Source: Candidatus Kryptoniota bacterium (GTDB lineage Bacteria; Bacteroidota; Ignavibacteria; Kryptoniales; JAKASW01). From it: a stretch of DNA of 64,000 nucleotides. The notes under the pieces were generated by a model. That model was not told the DNA's origin. It searched no databases and worked only from the letters and a program-made list of their open reading frames with translations. Shown piece by piece: positions 28,385-31,741 of the stretch (positions within the stretch are counted from its first letter, which is position 1; the number at the start of each line of letters is the position of its first letter). The position numbers and the translations under genes are program-made. The stretch covers positions 1 to 64,000 of the forward strand of contig JAHECO010000015.1 in the NCBI GenBank assembly GCA_024641705.1, written 5' to 3'.

Positions 28385-28440
28385 CGGGAAAAAGAAAAAG
28401 CCACGGCGGCTTCCGGATAAGGGGAGAACCGCCGCGGCTT
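28385..28440 (-). terminator. Rho-independent terminator of the redox operon
   Basis: A 12-bp stem with one G-T type mismatch (AAGCCACGGCGG with CCGCCGCGGCTT, 19-nt loop) is followed on the minus strand by CTTTTTCTTTTTC. It lies about 30 nt after the diheme cytochrome gene. Confidence 0.8.
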
Positions 28441-28467: not shown

Positions 28468-29262
28468 TTACTTCATGTCGCTCAATTGCTTGCCGTCGTA
28501 ATACCTGCTGGTGTGAGATAACGAGTATACGTAGTTAGCCAGATCCCATCTCTGCTTGTCCGTCAGGATCTGCGTGTAAGACGGCATGGGTGTCCCATTG
28601 AGGCCCGTGCTGAAGATGAGATAGACTTTCTCCGGGGTCCTTCCGACCTTGATATCCCAGAAGTGGGTCAGGTTGGTCGGCTGGATATGGTTCCCCTGGT
28701 CGTCCGTTACCGTCGGCGCGGAGGGACCGTTTCCTTCCGCGGTGATTCCATGGCAACTCCAGCAATGCATATTAAGGTAGACCTCTCTTCCCCGCTCTAT
28801 GCTGTCATAGGTGTAGGGAACCGGCGTGGAAATTTTCACCGTGTCCAGCGGGTATTGGGTCGAATCGCTGAATGCAGGCGAGAGTGTCTTGATGTATTCG
28901 ACCACCGAGTACTGGTCGGCGATACTCATCTGTGCAAACGACGGCATAGCGGTGTGGTAAATCCCGGAGTTTATTATCCTGAGCAAGTCATAGTCAGTCG
29001 GAAGCTCTCCGGAAGCCGTGCTCCTGAACTTGAACACGCCGAGATTGAAATCTCTCGGCTTTGTCGTAAGCGAAACGGACACCGGCCCGCTGCCGTCGCC
29101 GTTGTCGCCGTGGCAGGGAGCGCACGCCTCGTGGTAGACCGCCTGTCCGCGAGCGACACTGACCTCGTCGGACCCGTTGTAGCTGGTCGCGCACGAGTAG
29201 AGGCCGACAGTCAGGAAGATGATCATTGTTACCAGGGTTGTTTTCTGAATATTTGTCGTCAT
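28468..29262 (-). CDS. lipoprotein diheme c-type cytochrome
   Basis: Two tandem cytochrome c domains in one chain, each with a CxxCH heme site (CAPCH 47-51, CWSCH 167-171) and a candidate distal Met (TAMPSF at 106; GTPMPSY near the end). The N-terminus is a lipoprotein signal ending LYSC (Cys24), so the mature cytochrome is membrane-tethered and faces the periplasm or surface. Start M at 29262 is preferred because AGGAG lies 6 nt before. It is last in the cupredoxin/cytochrome-porin operon, so it could pass electrons between the outer-membrane cytochrome and periplasmic carriers. The partner is inferred, not shown. Confidence 0.93.
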   Translation of the reverse strand: MTTNIQKTTLVTMIIFLTVGLYSCATSYNGSDEVSVARGQAVYHEACAPCHGDNGDGSGPVSVSLTTKPRDFNLGVFKFRSTASGELPTDYDLLRIINSGIYHTAMPSFAQMSIADQYSVVEYIKTLSPAFSDSTQYPLDTVKISTPVPYTYDSIERGREVYLNMHCWSCHGITAEGNGPSAPTVTDDQGNHIQPTNLTHFWDIKVGRTPEKVYLIFSTGLNGTPMPSYTQILTDKQRWDLANYVYSLSHTSRYYDGKQLSDMK

Positions 29263-29277
29263 TTTCATCTCCTTTTC

Positions 29278-30489
29278 TCAGAATCCTACCATCACGCCGA
29301 GCGTGGAGAGTGTCGTCTTGGTATCCGTGAGCGCCGCGGGGGCATTATCGTCCAGGAAACTCAGTTCCGCATACGCGCCGACGTTCGGGGCGAAATGATA
29401 GCGTACCCCTCCCGTCCACTGATTCTGCTTCTCCGAGGTTTCCGTCACCTTTGTGAAATCATACCTTCCGTAAACGAATAGCTTCTCGGGAACGATCAGG
29501 ACATTGAGCCCCAGGAAACCACCGTTCATCGTCTGTTTGACGCCGCCGATATTGTCGTCCGTCGCGTTCATGTACTGGAATGAGAGATCAAACCGCTTCG
29601 TCCAGGGATCGTTAGCCTCGACGGCGAATCCCATTCTGGCGAGGTTATCTGATGTGTTGACGCCTACCATCTGTTTTCCGCCGTAGTAGTACACACCCAG
29701 ACGGAACGGGGCATTGTCTATGTACTCAGTCTGTTCCAGCATAAGGAAGGTGGCTGAATTGTCCTTCAATGACGCCCCGCCGTCGGTTCCGTCGCTCAGT
29801 GCTAACTCATAGCGGAGACCGTCCATCACTTGAGGAAGAAACCCGTAGACCGACGCGGCCCATTGCGGCTCGGCAATCAGAAGGGAGCCCTGAGCGGGGT
29901 CGTAGTCATAAATGAGGTAGTCCGCCGATTCGACCAGGGACGTGTTGTCGGGGAAAGTGTTCCAGAGGCGGTAGCGGCCGAATCTGAAATTCAGATTACT
30001 CTGCCCGTCCGGACCGAGGAGATTGTTGAACATGATGCTCATAGTCTCGATCGACGGTGAAAACTGGCCCGGCCCGTCGATGCCGATCGGCGCGGCCAGG
30101 AAATAGCTCAGGTGTTTCGCTATCGTTCCCGCCGTAAAAAGGTCGAGCCCGCTCGGCTCGAAACTGAGCTCGTCGTTAGTCTGCGTGACACCCCCGGTCG
30201 TCGTGACGGTGTGGGCCGACACGAACGAAGGATAGAACACAAAAGACAGCGACAACGGCTCCTGAGCCCATATCGGTTCAGATTCGTCCGTGCCGGGAAG
30301 CTGGTACCCGTTGATCTGAAATCTCCTGCCGAAGTCGTTCAGGACAGGTGGAACAGTGTGGCATCTGAAACAGCTGACATGATACTTTCTGGCAAATAAG
30401 GGGATGGCTTCCGATTGGTTGGCGAAGATCCCGACAAACAGTATCGCGAGCCCTGCCATGAAAAGGGCTCGATACGGAGTAGCCTTCAT
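29278..30489 (-). CDS. Cyc2-like fused monoheme cytochrome and outer-membrane porin
   Basis: A signal peptide (cleavage likely after SEA, residue 28) is followed at once by a single heme site, CFRCH at 40-44, in the context LFARKYHVSCFRCHTVPP, then NDFGRRFQINGYQL. This resembles the N-terminus of Cyc2 outer-membrane cytochromes. The remaining 340 residues alternate in beta-barrel fashion (YELALSDGTDGG, FVYGRYDFTKV) and end in Phe (LGVMVGF). Cyc2 proteins oxidise Fe(II) at the surface of iron-oxidising bacteria; related cytochrome-porins occur in bacteria with no known iron oxidation, so the substrate is open. The ATG has GGAGGAATT. It is the middle gene of a three-gene operon. Confidence 0.85.
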   Translation of the reverse strand: MKATPYRALFMAGLAILFVGIFANQSEAIPLFARKYHVSCFRCHTVPPVLNDFGRRFQINGYQLPGTDESEPIWAQEPLSLSFVFYPSFVSAHTVTTTGGVTQTNDELSFEPSGLDLFTAGTIAKHLSYFLAAPIGIDGPGQFSPSIETMSIMFNNLLGPDGQSNLNFRFGRYRLWNTFPDNTSLVESADYLIYDYDPAQGSLLIAEPQWAASVYGFLPQVMDGLRYELALSDGTDGGASLKDNSATFLMLEQTEYIDNAPFRLGVYYYGGKQMVGVNTSDNLARMGFAVEANDPWTKRFDLSFQYMNATDDNIGGVKQTMNGGFLGLNVLIVPEKLFVYGRYDFTKVTETSEKQNQWTGGVRYHFAPNVGAYAELSFLDDNAPAALTDTKTTLSTLGVMVGF

Positions 30490-30561
30490 AATTCCTCCGA
30501 TAGATTTGTGCTTAGATAGATCTGAGAAATGTGATTTTTCTTACGTAGCGCCTCGGGAAAT

Positions 30562-31296
30562 TCACTTGATCGTGAAATCAGCCGTGGTTGTCTTTCCGGC
30601 TACGACGGTGATTTCCTGAGTTTCCTCTATTGACTTGGAGAATTCCGGTTTCCCGCCAACGTCTTTTGTGTCCCAGCCCTCATGCCACATCACGAGCTTG
30701 TATTTGCCGGCCGGTACGTCCTTGAGGGTGAATTCGCCTTCCTTGTTGGTGGCATCTGCATAACCGTCGCCGGCCACATACACATACGCGTTCATCCACG
30801 GATGGACATCGCATCTCATAAGGTACATGCCGGGTTTCCTGACGCGCTGTACAAACTTCATCCCTTTCACCGGCTCCGCAATGTTGAAGGCGGTCTCGCC
30901 GTTCGAGGCAAAGTATCCGTGTACGTTGTGGAATAGCGGATCATTGTTGGCTACCGTGAACGACTCTCCGTGGTCCACTACCAGCACATGCGGGTTGTAC
31001 GAGCAGTCCTTCTGGTCGATGACATACTTCGAAGCGGCAACGTGCTCCGGTTTGCTCTTGAGTCCTTCGATGTAGACTACTGCGTACTCGACACCGCCGT
31101 CCTTCGAGACGACCAGCCTGTCGAGAGACGCTTCGCTCCCGCAAACGTTATTGTTATAGGTTACCTTATACGGTGTCATCGCGGGCACCGTCCCCGAGAA
31201 CTTCACCGTTCCCTGGACTGCGCCCGTCTGCCCGTAAACCAAACCCGAACTCAATGCAAAAGCTAACAGAGCCGTGACGGCTTTGATCGTCTTCAT
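30562..31296 (-). CDS. secreted cupredoxin with carboxypeptidase-regulatory-like domain
   Basis: A signal peptide (MKTIKAVTALLAFALSSGLVYG) is followed by a cupredoxin fold whose likely type-1 copper ligands are His123 (or 126), Cys162, His165 and Met168 (FHNVH; CDVHPWM). A C-terminal CnaB/carboxypeptidase-regulatory-like beta domain follows (EGEFTLKDVPAGKYKLVMW). I use the ATG at 31296; the long in-frame upstream extension has no protein character and would swallow the leader. AAGGAG lies upstream. It is first in the redox operon and probably acts as a periplasmic copper electron carrier for the cytochromes after it. Copper binding is inferred from the ligand set. Confidence 0.88.
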   Translation of the reverse strand: MKTIKAVTALLAFALSSGLVYGQTGAVQGTVKFSGTVPAMTPYKVTYNNNVCGSEASLDRLVVSKDGGVEYAVVYIEGLKSKPEHVAASKYVIDQKDCSYNPHVLVVDHGESFTVANNDPLFHNVHGYFASNGETAFNIAEPVKGMKFVQRVRKPGMYLMRCDVHPWMNAYVYVAGDGYADATNKEGEFTLKDVPAGKYKLVMWHEGWDTKDVGGKPEFSKSIEETQEITVVAGKTTTADFTIK

Positions 31297-31741
31297 TCCT
31301 GATTTTCTCCTTGTTGTTTGTTCGTAAGCAACGGAGAGGCCGGTGCCTTCATAAAAAGAAAGGGGGGCATTAAGCGCTGAGAAGCACGAGAGTATTTCCC
31401 CGGCCGTTGAGGTTCTGCGGCACCGTGCTCGTCGAGATCCGGCTTCATGCTGAAACGAATTCTCACGGTGTGATATGTCGACCATACATAGTACTTCGTA
31501 GGACAAGTCAGCATCTCTTCGTTTCATGCTATAATGAATTTGCCCGTCTATTAGTTCCTTATCCGGTGAGGCTGGAGAAGAAATTCTAAGTGTAAGGACC
31601 AGCGGAAAGAGCGATCAGAATGACCGCATGAAACGGGGAATCATACCGGTGGGTGGTGGAGAAATGGAGCGGCGGAGATTCAGCAGGTATCTACCGGGGC
31701 GAAACTCATTCCGGCCCGGCGCGGGACACTATCCCGGGTGA
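31297..31741. other. intergenic region upstream of the redox operon
   Basis: 445 nt with no gene. I see no TTGnnn-17-TAnnTT promoter on the minus strand for the redox operon, unlike most genes here. A weak sigma-54-like GG-N10-GC pair lies at 31327-31342. A TATAAT at 31530 points away from any gene and has no -35. The rest has no visible structure. Confidence 0.5.

Follow-up and report, generated by a model that had tools for sequence, protein, structure and literature searches.

The first 64,000 nucleotides of contig JAHECO010000015.1 from a Candidatus Kryptoniota bacterium (assembly GCA_024641705.1), here called the window, carry on the minus strand a run of three genes for a cupredoxin-like protein (gene 1), a cytochrome-porin (gene 2) and a diheme cytochrome c (gene 3). 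The product of gene 2 agrees with every published Cyc2 sequence criterion that we applied and is predicted to be a Cyc2-like cytochrome-porin, and genes 2 and 3 form the conserved core of the operon. We consider it probable, if not assured, that the operon specifies a Cyc2-type conduit by which electrons enter across the outer membrane, with Fe(II) as the likeliest donor, and pass to a periplasmic pool and on to a terminal reductase. Most of what is known about iron oxidation by Cyc2 comes from Proteobacteria, Chlorobium and Leptospirillum, and the function of Cyc2 outside the well-studied iron oxidisers has been called uncertain. The three genes lie where a preliminary description of the window had placed them:

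31296-30562, minus strand: gene 1, exported cupredoxin-like protein with a C-terminal carboxypeptidase-regulatory-like domain (ligands H123, C162, H165 and M168)
30489-29278, minus strand: gene 2, predicted Cyc2-like fused monoheme cytochrome-porin (putative signal sequence, IPLFARKY-x3-CFRCH-x3-PVL plug, predicted 16-17-strand porin barrel)
29268-28468, minus strand: gene 3, diheme c-type cytochrome with an invariant Met per heme, probable lipoprotein in this genus (likelier start at 29262)

Sequence and predicted structure of the cytochrome-porin

By the published definition, a Cyc2 protein carries AXPXFAR[Q/K][T/Y] just upstream of one CXXCH and PXL just downstream of it, has at least 365 residues and contains a porin barrel (PMC8406198). 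All of these elements were found in the 403-aa product of gene 2 (SEAIPLFARKYHVSCFRCHTVPPVLNDFGRRFQINGYQLPG), in which a hydrophobic leader is followed by AIPLFARKYHVSCFRCHTVPPVLNDFGRRFQINGYQLPG and then by a barrel ending in a C-terminal Phe. Specifically, AIPLFARKY is separated by HVS from the lone CXXCH motif, CFRCH at residues 40-44, after which TVP leads into PVL, and the predicted barrel is accompanied by a Pfam Porin_4 match of 34.2 bits (cut-off 27). The leader corresponds to a hydrophobic N-terminal helix (residues 5-21, ending in NQSEA ahead of IPLF) that was recognised from the sequence and the structure model, rather than by a dedicated signal-peptide prediction. The motif is well conserved: CXXCH does not vary in 25 of 25 orthologues, and neither do both Cys, Y36 and the Lys/Gln position, while the Arg is found in 22 and replaced by His in the other three. 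PXL is kept in all orthologues listed, and P30, F32 and A33 are invariant in alignments of 17 and of 28 sequences.

The barrel was predicted in an AlphaFold2 model built on 28 sequences (pLDDT 77.8, pTM 0.74), which superseded an earlier model based on 17 rows (pLDDT 63.5). VIA-align of the model gave Z values of 25-26 to the 16-strand porins PorB and Omp32 and to OprO and OprP over about 290-305 residues, and OprO-type porins are the reported structural match for Cyc2 of Mariprofundus ferrooxydans PV-1 (PMC8406198). Two further residues, H126 (22/25) and H365 (24/25), are well conserved; the model places them in or close to tight turns where strands end, and they are candidate distal heme ligands. 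A sequence search of the PDB with gene 2 returned no match even at E 10. When the family profile of gene 2 was compared by hhalign with 19 proteobacterial Cyc2-like homologues, a probability of 98.9% (E 3.7e-17) was obtained over 152 columns, comprising the heme plug and the first strands. The preliminary description had proposed a fused cytochrome-porin of the Cyc2 kind with the heme motif, FAR context and terminal Phe given above, and this part of it was borne out by the published motif, the predicted barrel and the conservation among orthologues, with the heme plug modelled at low confidence only. None of the three outcomes that it had named as contradicting the proposal was encountered, namely membership of an unrelated porin family, a structure without a barrel or a heme motif that is not conserved.

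In a tree of 65 proteins with the Cyc2 motif, the 25 operon-type sequences formed one group (SH-aLRT 100); the deep branches of this tree are long and their order is not trustworthy. Of 391 sampled genomes of the class, 132 matched gene 2 at E 1e-15, about two dozen of them with operon-type sequences (bits >300). The named records with matches are congeners of the window genome (Bacteroidetes metagenome-assembled genomes, or MAGs), Candidatus Kryptonium, Chrysopegis, Thermokryptus, Candidatus Kapaibacterium and Ignavibacteria MAGs. A search of genome contigs with gene 2 retrieved Bacteroidota MAGs and two gammaproteobacterial MAGs only, and a search of plasmids retrieved homologues from Burkholderiales and Methylocystis. 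Homologues were present in 53 of 369 genomes from the class of one of the gammaproteobacterial MAGs; 20 of their neighbourhoods were read, and none contained a recognisable rus operon. The lineage had been presented as one not widely known for such electron transfer, a statement that needs softening: the operon is not a complete surprise there, because FeGenie calls Cyc2 genes in Ignavibacteriales (PMC8478452) and Kryptonia were predicted to carry out iron redox (PMC4737851). In the literature searched, which excludes most subscription journals, we found no earlier description of the operon, its pairing or its respiratory linkages.

The window genome encodes three cytochrome-porins of different type. 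One of the other two, in the region 7212-15999 of contig C69, is a FARQTG-type Cyc2 homologue that groups with the proteobacterial ones and is followed by genes for a monoheme cytochrome, Qrc/ACIII-like proteins (QrcA, QrcB, QrcC and a DsrP-like protein), a four-heme cytochrome and a cupredoxin-like protein; this paralogue may be the better candidate for iron oxidation in this genome. The other has the motif IPAFARKY (C41:11119-12177) and is paired with a 4-5-heme cytochrome c, as are its relatives in L121, L122, L124, L126 and L130. This C41-type family may constitute a separate extracellular electron-transfer system, and most of the other matches in the class (roughly 100 genomes) look C41-type, as judged from a sample of them that was read.

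The conserved gene pair and its genomic neighbours

Orthologues in the same order were found in five congeners, at 72-87% identity, and genes for a cytochrome-porin and a diheme cytochrome are adjacent and co-directional in 25 of 25 operon-type loci (one is cut by a contig end), usually overlapping or at most 40 bp apart. The operon is therefore not a chance arrangement, and the gene order expected for related genomes was indeed present. The cupredoxin gene precedes the pair in 16 of the 25 loci: in all six of the window genus and in 10 of 11 of the Kapaibacterium-type family, as compared to none of five in Kryptonia and none of three others. In G028 and G085 its presence was established by tblastn, since it had been missed by ORF calling. 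In the last three loci (L065 gene 12, L067 gene 10 and L068 gene 9) its place directly ahead of the cytochrome-porin is taken by a gene for a cysteine-containing protein of 113-135 aa without an obvious leader. Thus, the conserved core consists of two genes, and the cupredoxin is a lineage feature outside it. This leaves unsupported the idea of a complete three-step relay, as the window operon had been called, because the cupredoxin is optional and no respiratory enzyme is encoded within 10 kb of the window locus.

Gene 1 encodes a protein of 244 aa with an N-terminal signal sequence. As noted in the preliminary description, it contains an H/C/H/M set of copper ligands, which, read from the sequence, are H123 (FHNVH), C162, H165 and M168 (CDVHPWM) in the amicyanin pattern. 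This pattern recurs in nearly all homologues, some orthologues having C-x3-H-x2-M. The best PDB and NCBIfam matches of gene 1 are amicyanins, and the H...C-x2-H-x2-M pattern is that of amicyanin/plastocyanin-type cupredoxins; in contrast to these, gene 1 stays under the curated cut-offs (19.3 bits to Pfam Copper-bind, cut-off 21.2; the NCBIfam amicyanin model likewise) and has an extra C-terminal domain that matches Pfam CarboxypepD_reg above cut-off. A full-length homologue lies on pSymA of Sinorhizobium meliloti beside SCO and hemA, near cbb3 oxidase and sox genes and without a cytochrome-porin, so that proteins of this cupredoxin-carboxypeptidase-regulatory family are not confined to Cyc2 systems.

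The product of gene 3 (266 aa) has two CXXCH motifs, and Met108 and Met228 are invariant in 17 orthologues. It had been described as a diheme lipoprotein cytochrome. The two heme motifs and, in the window genus, a lipobox Cys were found, and the protein is probably a lipoprotein in that genus; as the Cys is missing from the Kryptonia and Kapaibacterium orthologues, this status appears to be lineage-specific. A match of gene 3 to the cytochrome-579 model was dropped as a hint of iron oxidation, as it lies far under the model cut-off and is equalled by generic cytochrome models; the oxidase-cluster cytochrome likewise matches cytochrome-579.

Genes 1 and 2 are separated by 72 bp and genes 2 and 3 by 9 bp. 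The strong ribosome-binding sites and the closing terminator reported previously were recognised again, with a clear site before each gene (direct reading) and a hairpin behind the last one:

31305-31312, minus strand: ribosome-binding site AAGGAGAA of gene 1
30494-30498, minus strand: ribosome-binding site GGAGG of gene 2
29269-29276, minus strand: ribosome-binding site AAAAGGAG of gene 3
28385-28440, minus strand: Rho-independent terminator, with a GC-rich stem of 14 bp and a T-rich tract behind it

The folding energy of the terminator region is -39.3 kcal/mol, compared to a mean of -23.5 for shuffled sequences (z -4.8). Since AAAAGGAG abuts the ATG at 29268 and is 6 nt away from the ATG at 29262, the latter is the likelier start of gene 3. 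The operon is flanked on one side by a response-regulator gene beside phoU-phoR-phoB and on the other by a gene for an outer-membrane protein. In Kryptonia it adjoins phoU and pst-like genes, and because pho-type neighbours occur in both, the position of the operon is probably old.

In several relatives, the operon is linked to genes for terminal enzymes. Four of five Kryptonia have the gene string COX2-COX1-SCO-cytochrome-porin-diheme cytochrome (in one of the four, the contig ends ahead of COX2). In the congener G008, the operon follows the COX1-COX3-COX2 genes of an aa3-type oxidase and a cytochrome gene; the window genome has a related COX1, whose score falls narrowly short of the CtaD/CoxA model cut-off. 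The operon adjoins ccoI, a fused ccoNO and ccoG (cbb3 oxidase) in G064 and G085, and genes for a Rieske protein, cytochrome b-c and copper nitrite reductase (NirK) in G055 and G028, with an additional Sec-dependent NosZ in G055; at two more loci, nothing but cytochrome b or Rieske/cytochrome b is encoded nearby. COX1-type genes within 10 kb were present in 7 of 25 loci versus about 0.9% expected per locus, given two COX1 genes per 4.6-Mb genome, in a statistic that ignores kinship among the loci. With this relatedness taken into account, one may fairly speak of three or more separate linkages to an oxidase, in addition to the one to NirK.

The COX1-family genes of the window genome are located on contigs C10 and C35, and the former allows a comparison of one interval in three genomes. 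In G008 the operon lies between the oxidase cluster and nucleoside-phosphorylase/transporter-like genes. In G003 this interval is occupied by another, different Cyc2-like gene together with genes for a monoheme cytochrome and Rieske/cytochrome b, and on C10 of the window genome its two flanks abut, with no cytochrome-porin module between them. Thus, one and the same oxidase has received two clearly distinct cytochrome-porin modules, as would be expected if both feed it.

As every linked terminal enzyme contains copper, it could also be argued that the operon aids the copper supply or maturation of heme-copper oxidases, NirK and NosZ, with the porin acting as a regulated channel for the entry of copper. 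Such a role would fit the occurrence of SCO and CcoI-type copper ATPase genes in the same clusters, the copper ligands of gene 1 and the S. meliloti homologue, which stands beside SCO and near a cbb3 gene in the absence of a cytochrome-porin. However, SCO and CcoI belong to the normal assembly equipment of those oxidases, and the constant members of the operon are two cytochromes with an invariant CXXCH and two invariant Met residues in the diheme protein, whereas the copper protein is optional (16/25). We therefore regard copper handling as improbable.

A gene of another kind, for a tryptophanase/beta-eliminating-lyase-like protein of ~460 aa (so named by its similarity), recurs beside the operon in Kapaibacterium-type genomes (L046 gene 11, L049/L062 gene 2, L069 genes 0 and 6, and L104 gene 12), and a relative is encoded elsewhere in the window genome.

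Proposed direction of electron flow and likeliest donor

Under the proposed electron-uptake function, the N-terminal monoheme segment, in or at the mouth of the barrel, would accept electrons from a donor outside the cell, most likely dissolved Fe(II), and the heme of gene 2 would pass them to the diheme cytochrome c of gene 3. The putative type-1 copper protein may join the periplasmic relay in the window genus and in most Kapaibacterium-type genomes. From the periplasmic pool, electrons would reach O2 in the window genome and in Kryptonia, via a heme-copper oxidase, and probably nitrite as well where NirK is encoded in the same cluster. What the analysis establishes is the anatomy of the genes, the motif, the barrel prediction, the conservation of the pair and its linkage to terminal enzymes in relatives, whereas heme attachment, the outer-membrane location, the inward direction, Fe(II) as the donor and the order of the carriers are what we infer here. 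The preliminary description had spoken of electrons moving between the periplasm and a donor or acceptor outside; this is a reasonable suggestion, and the terminal oxidases and NirK linked to the operon in relatives favour the inward direction.

Conceivably, the same proteins could work outward, the diheme cytochrome donating to the porin heme and respiratory electrons being delivered to Fe(III) or some other acceptor outside the cell. Kryptonia were predicted to respire ferric iron by a system that is not Mtr-like (PMC4737851), and the window genome has no MtrB/PioB homologue (no PF11854 match) and does possess a cytochrome-porin paired with a penta-heme cytochrome, for which outward flow is conceivable. 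Yet in several relatives the operon adjoins genes for enzymes that reduce O2 or nitrite, using up electrons on the inner side, and the multiheme cytochromes that are usual in export chains accompany the C41-type paralogue, not the operon. An outward conduit thus seems quite unlikely to us.

With respect to the donor, electrons could be taken up from reduced humics or phenolics, Mn(II), sulfide, an electrode or another cell. Some of the organisms that have Cyc2-like genes are not known as iron oxidisers, and other functions were called possible (PMC8406198); moreover, the relatives come from sources as varied as groundwater, palsa and, for Kryptonia, hot springs (PMC4737851). Nevertheless, the verified Cyc2 proteins oxidise Fe(II), and we saw no feature that favours another particular donor. 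We accordingly see a donor different from Fe(II) as an unlikely alternative, but one to be reckoned with.

Several observations weigh against uptake of electrons from Fe(II) by a conduit of the Cyc2 kind. The heme plug is poorly modelled (pLDDT 40-47 for residues 21-50). A long branch separates the operon-type clade from the proteobacterial FARQTG-type Cyc2-like proteins, in a tree built on homologues from genomes and plasmids, none of which is a biochemically tested Cyc2. The published Cyc2 tree, of 1,593 sequences, has three clusters, and the authors called function in the most diverse of them, Cluster 3, uncertain (PMC8406198). Likewise, the linkage statistic takes no account of kinship, the cupredoxin is absent from 9 of 25 loci, and neither a terminal oxidase nor NirK nor a bc complex is encoded within 10 kb of the window locus, as is the case in most congeners. 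Lastly, no RuBisCO was found in the window genome. Lithoautotrophy via the Calvin cycle is therefore unlikely, and the host is likelier a heterotroph that gains extra energy.

More doubtful, and put forward tentatively, is the wider idea that this distinct Cyc2-like clade and its fixed diheme partner are a plug-in electron-input module, which lineages of the class have separately joined to different terminal reductases (several oxidase types, and copper nitrite reductase with NosZ). Such a module would give heterotrophic Kryptonia- and Kapaibacterium-type bacteria O2- and nitrite-dependent extracellular Fe(II) oxidation. If the Cyc2-like genes of such lineages do signify iron oxidation, surveys based on known clusters may undercount it, including nitrite-linked iron oxidation. 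The operon would also provide an explanation other than ferric respiration for the iron chemistry that has been predicted for Kryptonia. A Bacteroidota clade with a conserved operon and varied respiratory partners provides a concrete test of whether Cyc2-like genes beyond the known iron oxidisers mean iron oxidation.

Comparison with known electron-transfer systems

Like MtrAB and PioAB, the proposed conduit would carry electrons across the outer membrane; unlike them, gene 2 combines one heme site and a small barrel of the general-porin type in a single polypeptide. The rus operon of Acidithiobacillus has the order cyc2-cyc1-cup-coxBACD-rus (PMC10654088), and the window genes resemble it in that a cytochrome-porin, a diheme cytochrome c and a putative copper protein are combined in one operon. 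It differs in that the window locus has no coxBACD counterpart (no cox genes within 10 kb), that gene 1 joins a cupredoxin-like domain to a carboxypeptidase-regulatory domain and that gene 3 was not matched to the c4 cytochrome model. The closest resemblance to rus is provided by the Kryptonia pair with its COX2-COX1 genes, although Kryptonia lack the cupredoxin. As for the porin itself, gene 2 has FARKY in place of the FARQT of known Cyc2 proteins and is 15-22% identical to the proteobacterial homologues. It shares with Acidithiobacillus Cyc2, Leptospirillum Cyt572 and Mariprofundus Cyc2PV-1, for which a heme potential of +208 mV was reported (PMC8406198), a probable leader, the AXPXFAR[QK][TY] motif, the single CXXCH, the PXL, the size and the porin-type barrel of ~16 strands.

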